Program-made: the position numbers and the translations under genes
Origin: Polyangiaceae bacterium
GTDB taxonomy: Bacteria; Myxococcota_A; Polyangia; Polyangiales; Polyangiaceae
NCBI GenBank assembly: GCA_029261965.1
Contig: JAJDAH010000042.1
Span: 1 to 40,955 of the forward strand
Direction: 5' to 3'
DNA length: 40,955 bases
Notes under the pieces: generated by a model
Seen by the model: only the letters and a program-made list of their open reading frames with translations
The model's database searches: none
What the model was told of the DNA's origin: nothing
Shown here: piece after piece, positions 3,618 through 17,544 of the stretch
Layout of the letters: the number at the start of each line of letters is the position of its first letter
How positions within the stretch are numbered: position 1 is the first letter of the stretch

Positions 3618-4016
3618 TTATTCCTTCGGGCGCTTGACGCCGTACTTGCTGCGCTTGCGCTTGCGGTTCTCTTTGTTGGTGCTGCTCGGGCCTGCGGCGC
3701 CGGAAGCGTCGAGAGTGCCGCGAACGACGTGGTAGCGAACACCCGGGAGGTCCTTCACGCGACCGCCGCGGATGAGGACCACGCTGTGCTCCTGCAAGTT
3801 GTGACCCTCGCCCGGAATGTAGCTCGTGACTTCCATGCCGTTGGTGAGCCGCACGCGACACACTTTGCGAAGCGCGGAGTTCGGCTTCTTTGGCGTCGTC
3901 GTGTAAACGCGAACACAGACGCCGCGCTTTTGGGGACAAGCCCGAAGCGCCGGAGCGTCGGTCTTCACTTTTTGGGCCGTACGGCCGTAGCGAATGAGCT
4001 GATTAATCGTGGGCAT
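3618..4016 (-). CDS. rpsL: 30S ribosomal protein S12
   Basis: S12 sits at the 30S decoding centre and controls accuracy. The product is 132 residues, slightly longer than the usual 123-125 because of a basic Ser/Lys-rich C-terminal tail. [13 protein letters not shown] and [13 protein letters not shown] are intact, with the two lysines whose substitution gives streptomycin resistance in other bacteria both present, so the protein looks wild type. It starts at ATG 4016 and is the first gene of the str operon, about 33 nt downstream of the predicted transcription start. A small hairpin (4019-4035) lies directly before the start codon. Confidence 0.98.
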
Positions 4017-4018
4017 GA

Positions 4019-4035
4019 TGGGGCAAAATCCCCCA
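4019..4035 (-). promoter_or_regulatory. Small hairpin directly before the rpsL start
   Basis: TGGGG and CCCCA form a 5-bp stem around a 7-nt loop within the very short rpsL leader, ending 2 nt before the ATG. It contains the only purine-rich stretch that could serve as ribosome binding site. It might therefore limit initiation, but this is inference from one short stem. Confidence 0.3.
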
Positions 4036-4055
4036 GCCTGACCGAGGGAGCCGGG

Positions 4056-4083
4056 AGGGTAGTCGCAGCGCAGAACGTGTCAA
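4056..4083 (-). promoter_or_regulatory. Predicted housekeeping promoter of the str operon
   Basis: On the minus strand TTGACA (4083-4078) is followed after 16 bp by TACCCT (4061-4056). This would start transcription near 4049, about 33 nt before the rpsL ATG. The perfect -35 and the same TACC-type -10 found at three other sites in the window support it. It means the str operon need not depend on read-through from rpoBC. Confidence 0.6.
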
Positions 4084-4171
4084 GGACGCCGCGATCGGCG
4101 ACAATCACGAGTCGTCCCGCCAGGCGCCTCCACGGGGGCCGGGCCCGCCAAGAATGACGTAACCCCACACG

Positions 4172-4822
4172 ATGACTCAGAAAAAAGCAGAGGCCGCCCC
4201 GACGAGTGTCAGCCGAAAATCGGCGAGCTACCACCACGGGGATCTGCGGCGGGCGCTGCTCGACGCCACTTTGGAGCTCATCGAGGCCGATGGGCCAGAG
4301 GGATTCACCCTCCGCGCCGCTGCCAAACTGGCCGGAGTCTCGGACGCCGCGCCGTACCACCACTTCGCGGACAAGGACGCCTTGCTGGCGGCCGTCGCCG
4401 AAGAAGGCTTCGCCAAGCTGTACGAAGACATGAAAGCAGCGGGAGAAGCTTCGTCTTCCGCGCAACACGCCGCGCGCAGCATGGGAACCGCGTACGTCAT
4501 CTTCGCCGCAACGCAACCCGCCCACTTTCGGGTCATGGCGGGCCGGCGAGCGCGTGAGCAGAGCGAGCACCCCGAGCTATTCGAAGCGGCGAGCAGAGCG
4601 TTCAAGATCGTCCGGGACAGCTTGATGAGCAGCCTGGCGGAAGGCGACCTCGAGTTGCCGATTGAACAAGTGGTCTTCGGCTCGTGGGCGCTCGTTCACG
4701 GTCTGGCGTTCTTGGCCATCGACGGGCACCTCGGACCCATCGGGAAGGACCCGGAGAGACTTCGGTCACTCGTGCAAGGGGTGATGGAAGTCTTGAGCGG
4801 TCCGCCCGAGTCCAAAAAGTGA
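4172..4822 (+). CDS. TetR/AcrR-family transcriptional regulator, WHG-domain type
   Basis: A 216-residue one-component repressor. The N-terminal helix-turn-helix spans about residues 20-70, starting with YHHGDLRRALLDAT and containing the recognition-helix stretch GVSDAAPYHHFADKDALL. This belongs to the TetR subgroup whose ligand domain is called WHG. The C-terminal half is an all-helical ligand and dimer domain of ordinary length. The ATG at 4172 has no clear Shine-Dalgarno sequence. It is transcribed away from rpsL and convergent with the lipoprotein operon at 4829-8510, with stops 6 bp apart. The target is unknown; the nearby fatty-acyl-CoA synthetase operon is a reasonable guess because TetR proteins often control lipid genes, but no operator was identified. 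Confidence 0.9.
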   Translation: MTQKKAEAAPTSVSRKSASYHHGDLRRALLDATLELIEADGPEGFTLRAAAKLAGVSDAAPYHHFADKDALLAAVAEEGFAKLYEDMKAAGEASSSAQHAARSMGTAYVIFAATQPAHFRVMAGRRAREQSEHPELFEAASRAFKIVRDSLMSSLAEGDLELPIEQVVFGSWALVHGLAFLAIDGHLGPIGKDPERLRSLVQGVMEVLSGPPESKK

Positions 4823-4828
4823 CGTCCT

Positions 4829-5728
4829 TCAATCGGGGACGCCGGCGCGAGTCGGCCAGCGCTCATCACCTTCGACGAACCAATTCCACGCGCCGACAAT
4901 CGCCTCCGAGACCGGGCCGCCATAGGTGTGGCCGATGTTCCCGTTGATCACGACTCTCGAAGGCAACTTGGCGGCGTCGAGCCAGCGCACCGGAGTCTTC
5001 GCCGCGTGCTGACACGCAGCCTGGCCGCACGCGAACAGAACCCGCTGCCCTCCAGCCTCGGCGTACTTTCGCGCATTGCCGGGGGCCCAGCTCTTGTAGC
5101 CACCCTCGACCAACACGGCCCGTGGGTATCGCTCTGGATCCTTGCGAATGATGCGCGCCCCCAAAATGGCGCCGAGTGAGAAGCCAGTGAATACCACCGG
5201 ACCCGGATGCACATGGTCGGGGAACGCGGCGGTCAGCGCCTTCAAGCCTGCCTCGAGTTCCTGCTCGACCTTGCCGAGCGCGCCGTACGTCCATCGGTCT
5301 TCGCCCTTCGGCGCGTCTGCACGCGGGATCCCGCGGGTGCACAGGATGAACGGAAAAGCCCTGGTGATTGCTCGCCAGACTTGGCATTGCGACTCGGGTT
5401 GATCGTAGTTTCCGTGCAGCGCAACGAGCACCGGCCGTCGTTCGGTCGCTCCCATCGGGACCGAAGCGACAGCGTCGCGAAATCCACTCACCGGAAGGTC
5501 GACGAGCGGGCCGGAGGCGCGAAGCGGCGCGGGTCCAGGCGGCGCCGCTTCGACGACCTCGCGCATGCTACCCGTGGCCGGCGCGGTGGGCGAGGGCGAC
5601 GACGCGAGTGCCGCGGCCGACGGCGCGATGATGGGCTCGGGAGCGCCGCTGCCGTTGGGACCACCCTTTTGACAAGCGATGACAAGCCCGATGAGAGCCA
5701 CGCCAAAGCCCGCAGAAGCTCTCACCAT
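4829..5728 (-). CDS. Lipoprotein alpha/beta-hydrolase (catalytically intact paralogue)
   Basis: Predicted 299-residue exported esterase-like lipoprotein. The start is ATG 5728, which overlaps the preceding gene by 7 nt and is followed by a signal peptide ending in the lipobox VIAC (Cys19). Residues 20-75 are a Ser/Ala/Pro linker. The alpha/beta-hydrolase fold begins with RPVLVALHGNYDQP (oxyanion HG at 105-106), has the nucleophile elbow GFSLG (Ser184) and a late His267 in GNIGHTYGG, so the active site looks complete. Cysteines at about 115, 130, 234 and 239 may form disulfides. The substrate is unknown. It is the last gene of a minus-strand operon with an acyl-CoA synthetase and a paralogue (5722-6693) lacking the catalytic Ser and His. 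The frame extends upstream to 5896 without a signal peptide, so the shorter start is preferred. Confidence 0.85.
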   Translation of the reverse strand: MVRASAGFGVALIGLVIACQKGGPNGSGAPEPIIAPSAAALASSPSPTAPATGSMREVVEAAPPGPAPLRASGPLVDLPVSGFRDAVASVPMGATERRPVLVALHGNYDQPESQCQVWRAITRAFPFILCTRGIPRADAPKGEDRWTYGALGKVEQELEAGLKALTAAFPDHVHPGPVVFTGFSLGAILGARIIRKDPERYPRAVLVEGGYKSWAPGNARKYAEAGGQRVLFACGQAACQHAAKTPVRWLDAAKLPSRVVINGNIGHTYGGPVSEAIVGAWNWFVEGDERWPTRAGVPD

Positions 5729-6693
5729 CCCCCACTGGGCTCGGCACCCCCATTCGTTGTCGACGGTTTCGTGAGGGCGCCAGCATCGGGAGGCGCGCCA
5801 TCGGTCTCGGCTTTGTTCGGTGAGGGTGCGTTTTTCTCGCCCTCGTGTCGAGAAAACCGGCGCCAGTCCGGCGCCCGCTCGACCAACCACGACCAACCGG
5901 CAGCCACCACGTCGAACACCTGTTTGCCCGAGTCTCCCGCCTCGATCAGTCGCGTCTCGACGTTTGCACTCCGGGTCACGGTGACAGGGCGCGCTACCGC
6001 TTCCGGACAGTCCTTCGCGGTGCAGACGAACAAGACGCGACGGCCACCTCTGCGGTCGAACGTCTTGGCCATTCCGGCGGTCCAGCGTTTGTAACCGCCA
6101 TCCGCAATGACGAGCTGAGCGAAAAACTCGGGTTGTTGCATGGCGATGGTCATGGCGTGCGGCGCCGCAGCGCCAATGCCGACCAGCACCGCTGGGCTCG
6201 CACCTACGTGGTGGCCGAACTTCTCCTTGAGCGACGACAGGGCCGCCCGGAGTTCCTTTTGTGCGGTGACCTCGTGAGGTTGTTTGCCGGAGTCGGGTCT
6301 TGGCGCGCCTCGCGGGCAGAGAATGAATCCGCCCGGTGGGACCACTTCGCTCCAGCGCTTGCAGTTGGCACGTGGGTCAGCGCCGTCACCGTGAAGAGCG
6401 ATGAGCACGGGGCGCGCCTCGGTCGCGCCGAGCGGGGCGTGCGCGGCTGCCGGCTCGAAGCCCTCGACGGCCAGCTCGACCGCCGACGGACCGTCGAGGG
6501 GCGAAAGGATCTCGGGGCGCGCGGTCTTCTCGCCAGCTTCGGCGGCAGAACCCGATGAGGTCGCGTCTCCCGCGCCGCACGAATCGCACGCCGTTTGCCA
6601 GAGCGAAAAAAGCGCGAGCAACGCCGTCGCCCCGACGGTCGGTGTTGTCACGACGGAGCTCCGGGCCCACTGCCGCGTCGAGCGTTCGCCCAT
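5722..6693 (-). CDS. Lipoprotein alpha/beta-hydrolase-fold pseudoenzyme
   Basis: A 323-residue paralogue of the downstream hydrolase; RPVLIALHG, FILCPRGAPR, ADGGYKRW, RRVLFVC and the WSWLVE end align throughout. The nucleophile elbow reads GIGAA (Gly174 in place of Ser), and the His position is Lys257 in GDSGKQ. Serine-hydrolase chemistry is therefore not expected. The start ATG 6693 shares its A with the TGA of the upstream gene (TGATG), which argues for it over the in-frame start at 6729. The signal-like segment ends TALLALFSLWQTAC (Cys36); this is a weak lipobox with Gln at -3, so lipidation is less certain than for its partner. A 40-residue Pro/Gly/Ala tail follows the fold. It may bind the same ligand, act as a partner or regulator of the active enzyme, or simply be decaying, although the frame is fully open. 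Confidence 0.82.
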   Translation of the reverse strand: MGERSTRQWARSSVVTTPTVGATALLALFSLWQTACDSCGAGDATSSGSAAEAGEKTARPEILSPLDGPSAVELAVEGFEPAAAHAPLGATEARPVLIALHGDGADPRANCKRWSEVVPPGGFILCPRGAPRPDSGKQPHEVTAQKELRAALSSLKEKFGHHVGASPAVLVGIGAAAPHAMTIAMQQPEFFAQLVIADGGYKRWTAGMAKTFDRRGGRRVLFVCTAKDCPEAVARPVTVTRSANVETRLIEAGDSGKQVFDVVAAGWSWLVERAPDWRRFSRHEGEKNAPSPNKAETDGAPPDAGALTKPSTTNGGAEPSGGW

Positions 6694-8510
6694 CAAAGCC
6701 GCGCGCGACCCTCGGTGACGTCTTTCCACAGCTCGGTGGTCATCCTCACGTAGCCGTCATCGCTACGCAAATAGATCGGATCCGGCACTTCGTCGGGATT
6801 GACGCCATCACTCCGCAGCTGGGTCTTCTGAATCTTGAAGGTGCCTGTCGTGGCCAGCTTGTCGAGCACGCGCACGAATCTGGGCTGCGCGTACGCGGGC
6901 AGCTCCTGCACGACCTTCCAAAAGTCCTTCTTGTCGAACTCACCGTGCGTCACGACGGCACACATTCCCGCTTGGCCTTCGTTGCCGGGTACCGGCACGC
7001 TCGCCACCGTGCACTCCTTGACCCGAGGAGAATGGCCGATGACGTCGGCAACTTCGGCCGTCGACACGTTTTCTCCCTTCCAGCGGAATGTGTCGCCGAT
7101 TCTGTCGACGAAATAGAAGAAGTCGTTGTCGTCGAAACGAAGCAAGTCGCCGGACCGGTAGTACTTGTCTCCGCGGACAAAAACGTCGGTGAGCACCTTC
7201 TTTTTGGTCGCAGCCTCGTCGGTGTACCCACGAAATTCGCTCGCAGCGGTAAGCGGCTGATTCTCGAGCTTGAAGATGAGCTCACCAACCTCGTTCGCCC
7301 CACACTCGACGCAGTAGCCGTCACTTCCCCTCTGGTGCTCGTCGTTGTCGACGTCGTAACGAATGACTTTCATCGGACCTAGACGTCTCAGCGGGACACG
7401 ACCTATCGACCCGACTTTTCCGCTGAGGTTGAGGATCAGCCCGGGCGCCTCGGTGGCGCCATAAAACTCCCGAATGAGTGGGACACCGAAACGTCGTTGG
7501 AACTCCTCCCAAACGTCCGGGCGCATGCCGTTGCCAACGGCGACGCGAATCGGATTGTTCTTCTCGGCCTGCACCGGCTTGGTGTTGACCAAGTACCGAC
7601 AGAGCTCGCCGATGTAGAGCATCGCCGTCGCTCGGTAGCGCTGCACGTCGTTCCAAAATTGGCTCGCGCTGAAGCTGCTGCGCATCGCCATCGGAGTCTG
7701 GGTCATGATGCAGCCGGAGGCGCCCAGCAGCATCGCGTTCGAGTGATAAAGCGGCAAGGCGCTGTACAATTTGTCCCCGGGGCCGAACGCGAAGCACACC
7801 GTTCCGAAGAAGTTGCCCGCAGAGACGGCCCGCGCATGCGTGACTTTGCAAGGCTTCGGCAAACCAGTCGTGCCGGAGGTGTAGATGTAAACGAAGTCGT
7901 CGCCCGCCGAAACCTTCGCGCGCGGGAACGGTGTGCTCGAAGCACTCGCCATCTTGTCCTCGAGGTCGCCTTTTCGGTAGACGAGCACGTGGTCGAGCTG
8001 CGCCTCGAGATCCGCACGAGCGCGCACGTTCTCCGCGAACTCCTGCTCGACGATGACGACACGCGCGTTGGCGCTCTTGATCGCGTGACTCAGCGGCTGA
8101 CCTTCGAGGTGGTTGTTGATCAACGCGGCAGTACCGCCAATCCGCGAAATTCCGAGGGTCGCCATCATGTAAGTCGGAGAGTTCGCGCCGAGCAGCGCAA
8201 CCGCGTCCCCCCGTTGCACACCGGCGTCCGCCAGCACGTGCGCGATACGTGAGGTCTGATCCGCGGCGTCCCACCACGTGAGCCGCTCGTTGTCCATTTC
8301 GTACGCGAGACCACCGGGATTCTTTTCGGCGTTCTCCAACAGAACTTTGAGGAGCGTGAAGTCGGCGTTGCCGCGAGCCTTCAGCACGACCGGCAATGCA
8401 CGTGTCAACGCCGGCCGAAGTGCGCCGAGCTCAATCTTGACCGCATGCCGCCAATCCGGATCACGAATGTGGCGCTTGAAGTCGGCGAAGGCTTCACTGA
8501 GATTCAACAT
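6693..8510 (-). CDS. FATP/FadD6-type long- or very-long-chain acyl-CoA synthetase
   Basis: A 605-residue ANL-superfamily enzyme that should activate fatty acids with ATP to an acyl-adenylate and then to acyl-CoA. Seen motifs are the AMP P-loop IYTSGTTGLPK (209-219), FYGATE (349-354), YRSGDL (about 451-456), and FRWKGENVS (475-483), which is the signature of the fatty-acid-transport-protein branch (animal SLC27, mycobacterial FadD6). The catalytic Lys lies in GTFKIQK (556-562). No membrane segment is evident; a basic N-terminal region could be peripheral. It is the first gene of an operon with two hydrolase-fold lipoproteins, stop and start sharing TGATG. This suggests that an exported ester is hydrolysed and its acyl chain activated inside the cell, which is inference only. 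Chain-length preference cannot be read from sequence. Confidence 0.9.
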   Translation of the reverse strand: MLNLSEAFADFKRHIRDPDWRHAVKIELGALRPALTRALPVVLKARGNADFTLLKVLLENAEKNPGGLAYEMDNERLTWWDAADQTSRIAHVLADAGVQRGDAVALLGANSPTYMMATLGISRIGGTAALINNHLEGQPLSHAIKSANARVVIVEQEFAENVRARADLEAQLDHVLVYRKGDLEDKMASASSTPFPRAKVSAGDDFVYIYTSGTTGLPKPCKVTHARAVSAGNFFGTVCFAFGPGDKLYSALPLYHSNAMLLGASGCIMTQTPMAMRSSFSASQFWNDVQRYRATAMLYIGELCRYLVNTKPVQAEKNNPIRVAVGNGMRPDVWEEFQRRFGVPLIREFYGATEAPGLILNLSGKVGSIGRVPLRRLGPMKVIRYDVDNDEHQRGSDGYCVECGANEVGELIFKLENQPLTAASEFRGYTDEAATKKKVLTDVFVRGDKYYRSGDLLRFDDNDFFYFVDRIGDTFRWKGENVSTAEVADVIGHSPRVKECTVASVPVPGNEGQAGMCAVVTHGEFDKKDFWKVVQELPAYAQPRFVRVLDKLATTGTFKIQKTQLRSDGVNPDEVPDPIYLRSDDGYVRMTTELWKDVTEGRARL

Positions 8511-8579
8511 GGTTCATTTTCAGCAGGGGGACGGAGGGGGAAGCAGCTTACGGGTTTTTCCCAGAATTTCCCCGCAAAA

Positions 8580-11500
8580 TCAGCGAAATGGGGCGAGCAG
8601 AGCGGCCATGCGCGAGGGCTCTCGGATGCCCTCGGTTCGCATCCACGTGTCGGCGGCTTCTATGCGCAGTCGCCCTTCGTCGCCACCGACGAGCTCACCC
8701 AAGCGACGACGAGCGACGTTGGCGAGTAGCTTCAAGTTGGCCGCGTCGAAACCCACCGCGGAGCTCGTGAGCAAGTCCGCCGCCTCCTCCGACATGTTTC
8801 GGGCAATGGCCACGCCAGCTCGCAGCATCATTGCGAGCGGATCGGCCCACGCGAGGCGTTCCTTTTCGATCCTTGCTGCGTCGCTCTCGACAATCTTGAG
8901 AAGCCGTTCTTTGTGGCGAGCCCGCATCGCAACGGCAAGCTTCGCCCTTCCGCGCAAGTTGAGGCCTTCGACGCGGAGAAACTGAATCCGCGTGAGATTC
9001 GAAGCTTCGAACTCCGACCACGACTGCTCGATGCGGGTGAGCGCGGCATCCGCGTCGCCTTGGTAGAGTTCGATTTGTGTCGAAGCAAGCAGGTCGAAAT
9101 AGTGCGGCAAGAGAAAGCCCTCGTTGTCCCAATTACGGCGGCCTTCGAGAACTTGGCGACGTGCCTCTTCGACATCGCCATTGACGAGCCAAGCGATGTT
9201 GCGGGTCCCACTGCGGAGCACCGTTGCGGCATAAATGTCGCCTCGCCCCTCGGCCTCGCGCACGAACTGGGGCACCAGCATTCCCAGATCCCGCAGGCGC
9301 CCAAGCCAAACGAGGGAGCTGAGCGAAAAAATTCGAGCGCTAGCGAGATCCCACGCGACGCCCGTGCACTTTTCCCGCAGCACCTCTTCGCCCTTTTCCA
9401 GATCGACCTGCGCCGACGCGAAGTCACCCTGTAGATACGCGGCGACCCCCGCCACAATCGACGCCATGGCCACCGGGTAGGGGTCGGCGGAGCCCTCGGC
9501 GAGCCCTTGGATGGTCTCGACGAGCTTTTGCGTTCGCCGCTCGCTCTTGCTCCCACCGGCGGCGGCGTAAATGGTCTCGGTCGCGAGCGCTCGAGTCACG
9601 CGACCTCGTTCGCCGGCTTTCAGCGCGAACAAGAGATGCCTCGATTGAAAATCCGCTGCGCGCAGAGCGTCGACGAAACCGAGACCGATCACCGCCGTCC
9701 ACGCGACATCGATTTGAGTCAGAACTTTCGGTGCGATGAGGTCGGGATCCGTTTCTTCGAAACGGTACCCGCGCAGTGCGATCACCGCGCGCCGACGAAT
9801 CAGCGATACTAGGGTCCACTGCACGTTCTTGGGCAGTTCCATGTCGACAGCCCTCAAGACGGACTCCAGCACCTCGAGGCCGTGGTCGCGGTGACCGCTT
9901 CGCAGGAGCTGTTCGGCAGCCTGCCGGCGCAACTCGAGAGCGACGCCGCCTGTCGCTCCGTCCGCCGCGGTCAGGTATTCCTTCGCGGCTTCCGCACCTC
10001 GCCCAGCGGCCACCAGAGCATCACCGAGGGCGATCGAAAGCTCGCGATAGCGAGGTTGGTCGGCTCCGCACGGCGCCAGGGCCAGGCGATAGAGTCTAAC
10101 CGCGCGATCGAAAGCGAGCATGGTGGCCGCTTGAGCCGCTGCTTCCGCGGCATACTCCCCAGCCGTCTCCGCGTCGCCGGCACCCGCGAAGTGATCAGCG
10201 AGGATCTCTGCGTCCGCCACGCCGGTGTCCTCGAGAACCTTGGCAAGCTCGCGGTGATGGGAAGCCAGCCTGCGTGAATCCAGCCCCTCGAGCACCGCTC
10301 GGCCGACCGCTTCGTGGTAGGTCTCGATGCGCTCTTTGTCCCCCGCGGGCACGGTACGGATGAGGTGACCTGCACGTAGCAGCGTGAGGGCCCCTCGGGT
10401 CTCCGGACCGAGACCCGAGGCTCGAGAGGCGACGGTGAGATCGGTCGGGCGGCCCGCAACCGCCACCACCTCCAAGAGCCGCAACGCGTCGGCCGGCAGC
10501 TGGACCAATCGCATCGTCAAGGCTTGCTCGAGCGTCATCCCTGCGGACGACGGCGTCATGGCATCGAGGTCTCCTTCCGAAATCGCCAAGGCGTATCGAA
10601 CAAGCTCCTGAACGAAAAGCGGGCTGCCGCCGGACTCGATCGCGATGGCCTCGGCGTGAATTCGCGTCGCTTCGTCGGTCTTGCCGAGCAGCGAAAGAGC
10701 GAAGTCGCGCGCTTCGTAGGGCGTCAGCGGACCGATCGTCAGATGGCGCACGTCGGGAACTTTCGAGCCCGCGTAGCTCGCTTCGTCGAGCAACGTCTCG
10801 AGCATGGGGCTGCCCTCCGCATACTCCGCCTGGTAGACCGCGAGGAACATCATCGAGGGTGCGTCCGGCGGGCGAAGCAGGTCGCGCAGCACATTGGCGC
10901 TATCCACGTCACCCCACTGCAAGTCATCGATGTGCAGCACGAGAGTGCGTTCGGCAGCAAGGTTCTTCAGAAGTTGCCGGAACGCCGTAAAAGCGTTTTG
11001 GCGCAGCTCCTGAGGGTCTGCCGCGGACCGCTCGTGTCGAATGGCCTCCGCGATGGCGTCGATGCGACGGAGTACGGTGAATACTCGGGCCAGCGCTGCA
11101 ATCCCACTCGGAAGCAGCTTCTTCAACTCGAGGGCCTTCATCTTGCGCAGATGCTGCGAGAGATCGTCGATGATCGGGTCGAGTGCCTTGTACGGAACAC
11201 TCTCCCGCTCGTAGCAACGACCGCTCAGAACGAGCGCCCTCGGGGAAATCGTCTCGATGAAGCGCTGCACGAGAGCCGATTTCCCGAACCCGCTCTTCCC
11301 CGAAACGAACGCGGTCACCGTACGGCCCTGGCTGACGTCGGTGAACGCGGTCGTCAGCTTCGCAAAGTCTCGTTCACGACCAATGAAGCTCGGCCCCGGC
11401 GGGGATACTTCGGTGATGGTGGGTGGCGCCGTCCAACTCGGTCGAAATACCGGCGACGGGTGCTCGGAATGGATCGCGTGAGTCACGGGCTCGTCGCCGG

Positions 11501-12491
11501 CACCGTCGAGCCGCCGAATGACCTCATCGCCCGACGGACGGTCGCCCGGATCCATCCTCAAGAGGTCCACGCAGAGCGCGTTCAGGTCGCTCGGAACCCG
11601 CGGAACCAGCACCCGAGGCGGCGGCGGCTCCTGTCGCTGCTTCTTCTCGAGGATGTCGACGTTTTCGCCCCAAAAGGGCAGTCGCCCACAGAGCGCTTGG
11701 TACAGCATCACGCCGACGCTGTACCAGTCGCTCGCATGTGACAGCGAGTGCGCCGCGGCCTGCTCGGGCGACATGTAGGCAGCAGTGCCCACCAGCGACA
11801 ACTCGTGATCCCCGGCTTCGGCGACGTCGACGACGAGCCCGAAATCGAGCAACACGACCCGACCCGCCGGCGTGACCAACACGTTCGAGGGCTTGATGTC
11901 GCGGTGCAGCTTTCCCGATTCGTGCAGAGCGAGAACCCCCGAGGCGAGTTGCTTCAACGTTGGTCTGAGCCGCCCCAGATGCAGCGGACTCGAGATACCC
12001 CGAGGTCTCCGTGCGGACGGGCGAAGCGCGAGCGCCGGGGGTTTGGTCGCACCGGGCCTCGGCACGGTGGGGAACGTGAGTGGCTCGACGATGGTGTCGT
12101 CGACCCCGTCGACCTCCTCTCCACCCGAAGGAATCGTGCAAAGCGCCGTGATGACGTCTTCTTCCGGTGCTCCGAGATCGGACCTCACGAACTCGAGAAA
12201 GCTCACGCCGTCGACGAACTCCATCGTGAAGAACCACTGGTCCCCCTGACTGATGAGCTCGTGCAGGGCGACCAGGTTCGGGTGGACGACGTTGCTCAGC
12301 CCGCGGAACTCCTGCTTGAACCGGTAGATGGCCGCGGCACTGACTTTGGCCAAGGTCTTGAGCGCGATCTGCTCACCGCGCTCCTTGTCGTAGGCCAAGT
12401 AGACGACGCCCATTCCACCCGCTCCCAAGCGGCCGTGGATCTCGAATCGACCCGTGCCCTGGAAGTCGACTTGGGTGAGCGGGCTCAGCAC
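8580..12491 (-). CDS. Ser/Thr protein kinase fused to AAA ATPase and TPR-like region (PknK-like)
   Basis: A large cytosolic signalling protein of 1303 residues from the chosen GTG at 12491. The kinase domain has GRLGAGGMGVVY, the ATP-binding Lys in IALK, HRDIKPSN (about 196-203), DFG (216-218) and SPEQ, so it is predicted active. About 60 residues rich in Pro, Ser and Thr are inserted after the hinge (about 106-168), where most Hanks kinases have none. Next comes an AAA/NTPase module beginning SFIGRERDF, with Walker A GKSGFGKS (about 398-405) and Walker B LVLHIDDLQWGD. The last 650 residues are helical and TPR-like. Neither HTH nor transmembrane segment was seen. The frame is open to another GTG at 12626, but that extension lacks family similarity and would overlap the divergent gene. 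Inputs and substrates are unknown. Confidence 0.9.
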   Translation of the reverse strand: MLSPLTQVDFQGTGRFEIHGRLGAGGMGVVYLAYDKERGEQIALKTLAKVSAAAIYRFKQEFRGLSNVVHPNLVALHELISQGDQWFFTMEFVDGVSFLEFVRSDLGAPEEDVITALCTIPSGGEEVDGVDDTIVEPLTFPTVPRPGATKPPALALRPSARRPRGISSPLHLGRLRPTLKQLASGVLALHESGKLHRDIKPSNVLVTPAGRVVLLDFGLVVDVAEAGDHELSLVGTAAYMSPEQAAAHSLSHASDWYSVGVMLYQALCGRLPFWGENVDILEKKQRQEPPPPRVLVPRVPSDLNALCVDLLRMDPGDRPSGDEVIRRLDGAGDEPVTHAIHSEHPSPVFRPSWTAPPTITEVSPPGPSFIGRERDFAKLTTAFTDVSQGRTVTAFVSGKSGFGKSALVQRFIETISPRALVLSGRCYERESVPYKALDPIIDDLSQHLRKMKALELKKLLPSGIAALARVFTVLRRIDAIAEAIRHERSAADPQELRQNAFTAFRQLLKNLAAERTLVLHIDDLQWGDVDSANVLRDLLRPPDAPSMMFLAVYQAEYAEGSPMLETLLDEASYAGSKVPDVRHLTIGPLTPYEARDFALSLLGKTDEATRIHAEAIAIESGGSPLFVQELVRYALAISEGDLDAMTPSSAGMTLEQALTMRLVQLPADALRLLEVVAVAGRPTDLTVASRASGLGPETRGALTLLRAGHLIRTVPAGDKERIETYHEAVGRAVLEGLDSRRLASHHRELAKVLEDTGVADAEILADHFAGAGDAETAGEYAAEAAAQAATMLAFDRAVRLYRLALAPCGADQPRYRELSIALGDALVAAGRGAEAAKEYLTAADGATGGVALELRRQAAEQLLRSGHRDHGLEVLESVLRAVDMELPKNVQWTLVSLIRRRAVIALRGYRFEETDPDLIAPKVLTQIDVAWTAVIGLGFVDALRAADFQSRHLLFALKAGERGRVTRALATETIYAAAGGSKSERRTQKLVETIQGLAEGSADPYPVAMASIVAGVAAYLQGDFASAQVDLEKGEEVLREKCTGVAWDLASARIFSLSSLVWLGRLRDLGMLVPQFVREAEGRGDIYAATVLRSGTRNIAWLVNGDVEEARRQVLEGRRNWDNEGFLLPHYFDLLASTQIELYQGDADAALTRIEQSWSEFEASNLTRIQFLRVEGLNLRGRAKLAVAMRARHKERLLKIVESDAARIEKERLAWADPLAMMLRAGVAIARNMSEEAADLLTSSAVGFDAANLKLLANVARRRLGELVGGDEGRLRIEAADTWMRTEGIREPSRMAALLAPFR

Positions 12492-12553
12492 ACCGAACAG
12501 TCTAGAGCACCCGAGGCGCCGCAGCCTCGCCCTGTTTCCCCCCGTCTCGCGTG

Positions 12554-12581
12554 GGATCCCCGCCGCTGTCGCCGGGGATCC
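12554..12581. promoter_or_regulatory. 9-bp inverted repeat in divergent promoter region
   Basis: GGATCCCCG (12554-12562) and CGGGGATCC (12573-12581) form a perfect inverted repeat with a 10-bp spacer. It lies between the kinase gene and the divergently transcribed MBL-fold gene. It could be a regulator-binding dyad; the regulator is unknown. Confidence 0.45.
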
Positions 12582-12591
12582 AAGACGTCTT
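12582..12591. promoter_or_regulatory. 10-bp perfect palindrome next to the inverted repeat
   Basis: AAGACGTCTT is a perfect palindrome that abuts the 9-bp inverted repeat, 20 bp upstream of the MBL-fold gene start. Two adjacent dyads in a 120-bp divergent region suggest an operator, but neither matches a site I know. Confidence 0.35.
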
Positions 12592-12611
12592 GCATGGGAT
12601 AGAGTGGCCGC

Positions 12612-13217
12612 ATGAAGCAGCTCCACCGCCCCGAGATGTTCTGCTGGTCAGCGTTCGACGAGACCCGCAACGTCGACTTTCACAGCGTGCTGTGGGTCCA
12701 CGAGGACGGTAATGTTCTAGTGGATCCGCTGCCTTTGTCGGACCACGACCGGCGGCACCTCGACACCCTCGGGGGAGCCAAGACGATCGTGATCACCAAC
12801 TCGGACCACACTCGGGACAGCGAACGCATCGCCGAGGCATTCGGCGCGCGGCTCTTCGGCCCGCGAACGGAGACGAAAGCTTTGCCCGAGCAATGCGAAC
12901 CCCTCGGCGACGGAGACGAACCCGTCCGCGGTCTTCGAGTCTTGGAGCTGCACGGTTCGAAGACGCCGGGAGAGCTAGCCCTGCTCGTCGAAGCAACGAC
13001 GCTCATCACCGGCGATCTAATTCGCGCCCACTCAGGAGGAACGCTGCATCTGCTTCCGGACGCCAAGCTCGACGACAAAACGAAGGCCGCCGAATCCGTC
13101 CACCGCCTCGCCCAAATGACGGATATCGAGGCCGTGCTCGTAGGAGACGGCTGGCCGGTGTTTCGTAGCGGCCACGCGCTGCTCGGCGAGCTCGACCGGC
13201 GGCTCTCTCAGCCCTGA
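12612..13217 (+). CDS. Metallo-beta-lactamase-fold protein with degraded metal site
   Basis: A 201-residue protein whose order of segments follows the MBL fold: an early strand region HSVLWVHEDGNVLVDPLPLS, then ITNSDHTRDS (61-70), KTPGELALL (117-125), LITGDLI (131-137), and a late VGDGWPVF. In active members the second segment is HxHxDH, the third GHTPG and the last GHG. Here only Asp65, His66 and Asp135 remain while the other His positions are Ile/Asn, Lys and Asp. Zinc-dependent hydrolysis is therefore doubtful; it may be a binding or structural relative. The ATG at 12612 has a weak upstream GAGTGG. It is divergent from the kinase gene and convergent with rpoC. The specific role is not recognised. 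Confidence 0.78.
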   Translation: MKQLHRPEMFCWSAFDETRNVDFHSVLWVHEDGNVLVDPLPLSDHDRRHLDTLGGAKTIVITNSDHTRDSERIAEAFGARLFGPRTETKALPEQCEPLGDGDEPVRGLRVLELHGSKTPGELALLVEATTLITGDLIRAHSGGTLHLLPDAKLDDKTKAAESVHRLAQMTDIEAVLVGDGWPVFRSGHALLGELDRRLSQP

Positions 13218-13218
13218 G

Positions 13219-13249
13219 CTGGTGCCGTCGCGCACAGCAGCCTGTTTTT
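13219..13249 (+). terminator. Possible intrinsic terminator after the MBL-fold gene
   Basis: CTG-GTGC and GCAC-(AG)-CAG can pair around a 6-nt loop with a 2-nt bulge, then CCTG and five T follow, beginning just after the stop codon. The stem is short and bulged, so the call is weak. No clear terminator was seen for rpoC on the opposite strand. Confidence 0.35.
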
Positions 13250-13281
13250 CAACGACCAGCACGACGGGGAAAAAGGAGCGC

Positions 13282-17544
<4,263 letters not shown>

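Follow-up and report, generated by a model that had tools for sequence, protein, structure and literature searches.

A candidate pseudoenzyme of the alpha/beta-hydrolase fold encoded between an acyl-CoA synthetase and an intact twin in Polyangiaceae

The window analyzed here, a stretch of 40,955 nucleotides from a Polyangiaceae bacterium (contig JAJDAH010000042.1 of assembly GCA_029261965.1), contains a cassette of three consecutive genes, which encode an acyl-CoA synthetase and two related hydrolase-fold proteins, P1 and P2. The cassette and its key residues are summarized in Table 1. The coordinates and reading frames of P1 and P2 in a preliminary description of this DNA agree with the translations. 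The same description had both genes overlapping the synthetase gene, which holds for P1, whose ATG at 6693 shares one base with the synthetase stop codon (TGATG), but not for P2, which starts at the ATG at 5728 and overlaps only P1, by 7 bases at the P1 stop. Overlaps of one and seven bases make co-transcription and translational coupling of the three genes very likely. According to Pfam, the genes around the cassette are rpoC, a metallo-beta-lactamase-fold gene, a kinase/AAA gene, the convergent TetR gene and rpsL-rpsG-fusA.

Table 1. Genes of the cassette and residues at the active-site positions of P1 and P2 (positions in the window).
Feature	Position	Strand	Basis
Acyl-CoA synthetase gene	6693..8510	minus	Pfam AMP-binding and AMP-binding_C; NCBIfam PRK08279
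P1 (upstream copy), a lipoprotein-like protein of the alpha/beta-hydrolase fold that lacks the nucleophile and the His	5722..6693	minus	translation, AlphaFold, VIA-align
P2, downstream copy: intact alpha/beta-hydrolase lipoprotein, predicted esterase	4829..5728	minus	translation, AlphaFold, VIA-align
TetR-type regulator, convergent with the cassette; candidate regulator only	4172..4822	plus	Pfam TetR_N and TetR_C_33
P2 Ser184 (TCA), nucleophile in GFSLG	5177..5179	minus	invariant in 15/15 P2-type rows and 32/32 rows of a broader intact alignment
P2 Glu208 (GAG), proposed catalytic acid after strand 6; P1 has Asp198 there	5105..5107	minus	alignment and model
P2 His267 (CAC), general base	4928..4930	minus	invariant in 15/15 P2-type rows
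P1 Gly174 (GGC), at the nucleophile elbow	6172..6174	minus	alignment column; model strand 169-173, helix from 174
P1 Lys257 (AAA), aligned with the position of the general-base His or adjacent to it	5923..5925	minus	alignments

By its domain content, the product of the first gene is an AMP-binding acyl-CoA synthetase, with both domains above the Pfam cut-offs (AMP-binding, E 8.2e-56 and 189.9 bits against a cut-off of 29.9; AMP-binding_C, 33.7 bits against 24.5). The match to the NCBIfam long-chain-acyl-CoA synthetase model PRK08279 (NF006134) reaches 621 bits, just below the cut-off of 625. We take the enzyme to be FATP-like, as it was labeled in the preliminary description.

P1 and P2 are paralogous along their fold, as had been claimed. 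They are 38% identical over P1 residues 39-277 (E 2.7e-36), and both are confidently modeled as alpha/beta hydrolases by AlphaFold, with input alignments drawn from the window and the fetched related loci only. The mean pLDDT is 82.2 for P1, where most ten-residue blocks of 61-280 exceed 90, and 89.1 for P2. The P1 model aligns with 6rzo_B (VIA-align Z 18.6, rmsd 3.2, 200 aligned residues) and the P2 model with 6rzo_A (Z 19.0, rmsd 2.9, 200 aligned), and in the rows shown Foldseek assigns a probability of 1.00 to solved hydrolases for both. Judging from these models, P1 and P2 belong to the alpha/beta-hydrolase fold superfamily. Within it, P1 has no match in Pfam or NCBIfam at E 0.1, and P2 passes no curated cut-off, its best scores being 13.6 bits in Pfam (cut-off 23) and 19 bits in NCBIfam (cut-off 150). 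Pfam hydrolase models match single members of the two groups described below, each family recognizing at most 2 of the 18 catalytically dead rows and at most 4 of the 15 P2-type rows at E 0.01. The fold is shared over about 180-210 residues with the carboxylesterase and feruloyl-esterase-like alpha/beta hydrolases of PDB entries 6rzo, 1jjf, 5dwd and 3wyd, at identities of 20% or less in the rows compared. P2 resembles these enzymes in having the GxSxG elbow and the His, but differs in the conserved Glu after strand 6 and the missing acid after strand 7, whereas P1 differs from them in lacking both Ser and His; P1 and P2 also both carry an export signal.

P2 has the Ser in a GxSxG elbow and the C-terminal His that characterize serine esterases of this fold, and the retention of Ser184 and His267 noted in the preliminary description is borne out by the alignment. 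Glu208, which that description did not mention, is invariant in the 15 P2-type rows; its position is occupied by Glu in all 22 intact rows versus 3 of the 18 dead rows, and in the P2 model strand 203-207 immediately precedes it. At the usual place of the acid, after strand 7, P2 has CGQAAC, which contains none. On alignment and model, we propose that the catalytic triad of P2 is Ser184-Glu208-His267. A catalytic acid after strand 6 is a feature of pancreatic-type lipases. Members of a more distant branch of the family (L122, L124, L127, L128, L130 and L132) carry a GxxD motif where the acid usually lies, after strand 7, and it is possible, to judge from these motifs, that the acid moved within one family, following strand 7 in the distant branch and being a Glu after strand 6 in the P2 type.

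P1 has lost both the nucleophile and the general base, with the fold and the frame kept, in agreement with the preliminary description, and so lacks the elbow nucleophile and His of a serine esterase. At the His position, one alignment places Lys257 and another a short (4-residue) gap; either way, the loop has no His. Another nucleophile at the elbow is ruled out because the elbow stretch, VLVGIGAAAPHA, contains no Ser, Cys or Asp.

Relatives of P1 were sought among 59 relatives, 108 genomes of the family and 183 of the order, with regional fetches added. Copies lacking both catalytic residues (hereafter dead copies) number 18, that of the window included, and occur in 18 of the 108 family genomes, in 9 genera (codes g1, g13 with 3 copies, g21 with 2, g22 with 6, g28 with 2, g33, g36, g59 and g62), so that the loss of Ser and His, for which a check in other species had been suggested, is common to relatives well beyond the window. 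The figure of 18 is a minimum, as only part of the matches from the family and order searches was fetched and read at the residue level; matches of the order search outside the family (e.g., G172, 199 bits) lie beyond that reading. Among 134 distinct homologous proteins from the loci fetched by then, Ser and His are both present in 109 and both absent in 21, which consist of the 18 dead copies and 3 cut or broken frames, the 18 being the sole uncut proteins without both. Set apart from this tally are the cut or broken frames L134 (3-1181), L154 (1-573) and L256, two copies with an intact Ser that are truncated by the end of a contig or locus, L083 (1-777) and L149 (1-1068), and two His-to-Pro copies; loci from a later search with a P2 profile are outside it as well. 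Dead copies are also present in eight named public loci, all metagenome-assembled (five Polyangiaceae/Polyangia, two Myxococcales and one Sorangium sp.), which are possibly the same genomes as the 18 and were therefore left out of the count.

The elbow residue of the dead copies is Gly in 13 and Ala, Arg, Lys, Glu (G106) or Asp (G062) in one each. The general-base His is absent from all 18, and nothing is conserved at its position. The His of the oxyanion loop (HG) is retained in 14 of the 18, and C111 and C126 are kept in at least 90%. If P1 were still an enzyme with a different mechanism, the retained oxyanion-loop His and the acidic elbow residues of G062 and G106 would be readily understood; however, neither a nucleophile nor a base is conserved, and the residues conserved specifically in the dead copies, including Arg149, Lys156 and His162, comprise no new nucleophile, which makes this reading very improbable.

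The export signals differ between the twins. The lipobox of P2, VIAC, is canonical, a strict match after a hydrophobic stretch, so that P2 has the sequence features of a bacterial lipoprotein and is predicted to be lipidated; that of P1, QTAC, is weak and matches only the loose pattern. An N-terminal hydrophobic stretch ending in Cys was read from the sequences of 14 of the 18 dead copies (a script scored 1 as strict and 10 as loose, and picked a second Cys in 3); 3 have no such stretch and 1 is cut by the contig. The genus g13 copies (L098, L155 and L157, in G012, G068 and G069) have an N-terminal hydrophobic anchor without the lipobox Cys and lack the strand-7 cysteines. In these sequences, the mode of anchoring possibly changed after catalysis was lost.

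In the tree, the dead copies form one clade (96/88), to which L084 (G026:C407, 4265-5632), a homolog of the P1 lineage with Ser, Glu and His intact, is sister (100/98). When the active-site columns and their neighbors are removed, the lineage made up of the dead copies and L084 stays (95/90), with L084 inside it at supports below 30; the dead copies are together in only 1% of 200 bootstrap trees obtained without the active-site columns, in a bootstrap that had not settled. Dead monophyly is not rejected by the AU test (p 0.371). A single loss of catalysis is possible on this evidence; as a certainty, it was dropped in view of the position of L084 and the bootstrap result without the active-site columns. 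The lineage-marking residues R149, A151, K156, L170, A180 and F190 are common to the dead copies and L084, which indicates that P1 is a member of an old paralog line that was formerly an intact hydrolase. The preliminary description had named homologs of the first gene with both Ser and His as a sign of decay. One such homolog exists, L084, and the other 18 relatives lack both residues; L084 is better explained as a surviving intact member of the lineage than by decay. Its contig, which is short, showed neither a synthetase nor P2. L084 is a useful living reference for the state that preceded the loss.

All 18 dead copies have open frames, one of which starts at a contig edge. In pairs from genus g13, dN/dS of the dead copies (Nei-Gojobori) is 0.185, 0.279 and 0.259, and that of the synthetase in the same pairs is 0.114, 0.176 and 0.149; for G100 and G105, the dead copy gives 0.188 versus 0.127 for the intact copy. 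Distant pairs (dS of at least 1.0) are near saturation; their values are 0.36-0.45 among dead copies and 0.36 among intact ones. These values bear on the view that P1 descends from a duplicated esterase and is now decaying. Relaxed constraint is evident from the long branches of the dead copies (up to 1.92 changes per column), from the variety of residues where the His would be, and from dN/dS values somewhat above those of the intact copy or the synthetase. Nevertheless, simple decay is ruled out by the open frames, dN/dS of 0.18-0.28 in the closest pairs and the spread over 9 genera, to which the persistence of C111 and C126 can be added, and we regard decay in any form as highly improbable. 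These sequence comparisons give good support to a maintained gene whose product has lost its catalytic residues.

In 9 of the 18 loci (window, G020, G064, G012, G068, G069, G032, G106 and G101), the dead gene comes directly after a synthetase gene, which upholds the association seen in the window by the preliminary description; the synthetase gene is at most 0.4 kb away in G100 and 2.8 kb away in G105. No synthetase occurs within 3 kb in 7 of the 18, two of which (G073 and G062) begin at the edge of a contig or close to it. Four g22 genomes have a linked synthetase of a more distant type (381-449 bits), and since another paralog in the window genome itself scores 460 bits, the g22 synthetases may not be orthologs of the window synthetase. 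Conversely, no copy of this hydrolase family is found alongside 5 of 12 close synthetase relatives (at least 650 bits). The synthetase as an obligate neighbor is ruled out by these two counts.

A P2-type copy overlaps or adjoins the dead gene in 6 of the 18 (window, G027, G035, G104, G101 and G100) and lies 3-6 kb on in 3 (G020, G064, with a frame broken near the contig end, and G074). The P2-type copy of G105 begins another contig that runs into rpsL, as in G100, and is probably adjacent to the dead gene, split from it by the contig end; that of G073 lies elsewhere in the genome (340 bits). In the remaining 7 (G012, G068, G069, G032, G106, G021 and G062), the P2 profile detected no P2-type copy, the best scores being at most 228 bits versus 340-413 bits for P2-type copies in the same search; two of these genomes are only 83 and 88% complete. 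Five of the 7 have the synthetase immediately before the dead gene. Altogether, a synthetase or P2 is found within 0.4 kb of the dead gene in 13 of the 18, and in 15 with the more distant cases of G105 (2.8 kb) and G074 (5.8 kb) included.

The preliminary description regarded the twins as an enzyme/pseudoenzyme pair. The part of this claim that concerns the upstream copy stands, P1 being a maintained pseudoenzyme candidate with relatives across the genera listed above, but the pair as a general rule is ruled out by the 7 genomes without a P2-type copy. A P1-P2 complex, in which P1 would control P2 or present substrate to it while the synthetase acts in downstream metabolism, is a rather unlikely explanation for the same reason. 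It would account for the six loci in which the two types overlap or adjoin, three of them (G027, G035 and G104) with no synthetase within 3 kb, and for the fact that two genera (window and G027) carry the pair at the same place, between rpsL and rpoC; moreover, two of the 7 genomes are the incomplete ones mentioned above, and another intact paralog could be the partner there.

The dead gene is located beside rpsL-rpsG-fusA in 7 of the 18 genomes. It directly precedes rpsL in G106, G073 and G062, and in the last of these about 80 bases separate its end from the part of rpsL that was matched; P2 lies between in G100, and P2 and the TetR gene lie between in the window, G027 and G074, all three with rpoC on the far side. 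The labels rpsL, rpsG, fusA, rpoC and PurL come from Pfam for the window and one locus and from similarity elsewhere. This recurrent location would be expected if P1 were an envelope sensor or scaffold unrelated to fatty acids, with the synthetase and P2 as neighbors by history, as would the dead genes of G073 and G062, which have neither synthetase nor P2 alongside (on short contigs). Yet, in 9 of the other 11 loci, the dead gene is immediately preceded by the synthetase or immediately followed by P2, and we consider such a role distinctly unlikely. The rpoC-rpsL interval (4016-13285 in the window) carries variable parts of a hydrolase/synthetase/kinase cassette in several genera. In the window, the gene that immediately precedes the synthetase (8580-12626, likewise on the minus strand) encodes a large protein with Pkinase and AAA_16 domains, and a partial match to this protein adjoins the dead gene in G074.

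P1 has the sequence marks of a pseudoenzyme, namely, an enzyme-family fold, loss of the required residues and maintenance of the gene. Since this loss extends over 9 genera and dN/dS indicates purifying selection in the close pairs that could be measured, P1 probably has a job other than cutting, such as binding or handing over fatty acids. A dead fold that carries an export signal has persisted, in most cases next to the synthetase, to P2 or to both of them, which favors a ligand-binding or scaffold role in the handling of acyl chains. The link to the synthetase looks at least as basic as that to P2, given that 5 lineages without a P2-type enzyme still keep the synthetase-P1 arrangement. Our preferred reading, held tentatively and with somewhat less than even confidence, is that P1 may be a maintained non-catalytic envelope pseudoenzyme, handling acyl chains alongside the synthetase and, in genomes that have it, alongside P2; the inactivity of P1, its location, its ligand and its partner are what we infer. 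Specifically, P1 would reside on the outer face of a membrane and would bind an acyl or ester ligand (or the synthetase) via the retained fold, without cleavage, thereby delivering or metering fatty acids for activation by the synthetase. P2, where present, would free the acyl group by ester hydrolysis with Ser184-Glu208-His267. Several observations count against this preferred role. The synthetase is expected at the cytoplasmic side and P1 is predicted to be exported, so that direct hand-over would require a transport step; furthermore, 7 of the 18 loci have no synthetase within 3 kb, and the g13 dead copies lack the lipobox Cys. A bolder version, which we advance as an improbable speculation, is that a hydrolase fold could have turned into a dedicated envelope lipoprotein that binds fatty acids or acyl esters and feeds a FATP-like synthetase, the dead esterase capturing the chain and the live twin releasing it; together they would form a module for fatty-acid import in bacteria.

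Pseudoenzymes of the alpha/beta-hydrolase fold are known in animals, namely, the NDRG proteins and neuroligins. Like P1, these retain the hydrolase fold, have lost catalytic residues and perform a non-catalytic role; P1 differs in being bacterial and exported, in belonging to another subfamily and in its linkage to an intact twin and an acyl-CoA synthetase. The CspC and CspA pseudoproteases of Clostridioides difficile are, as far as the titles and opening lines of abstracts tell, likewise bacterial, hydrolase-derived pseudoenzymes with a non-catalytic role, and differ from P1 in fold and process. Among titles and abstract beginnings retrieved for pseudoenzymes together with hydrolase and lipoprotein, alpha beta hydrolase or myxobacteria, no such protein appears, and by this measure bacterial alpha/beta-hydrolase-fold pseudoenzymes seem little studied. 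With 18 dead members, an intact relative from their own lineage, intact twins and a repeated synthetase linkage, the set at hand makes two subjects testable: the role of a hydrolase fold after the loss of catalysis, and the uptake or recycling of envelope fatty acids in these soil myxobacteria.

A recent tandem is present in another branch of the family, in G112 (L204:6087-6962) and G111 (L205:6088-6978). Its first copy has His replaced by Pro and keeps the Ser, and its second copy is intact; dN/dS is 0.39 at dS 0.12. Judging from these sequences, the tandem, which belongs to a separate branch and is outside the dead count, is possibly an independent case of a disabled twin.
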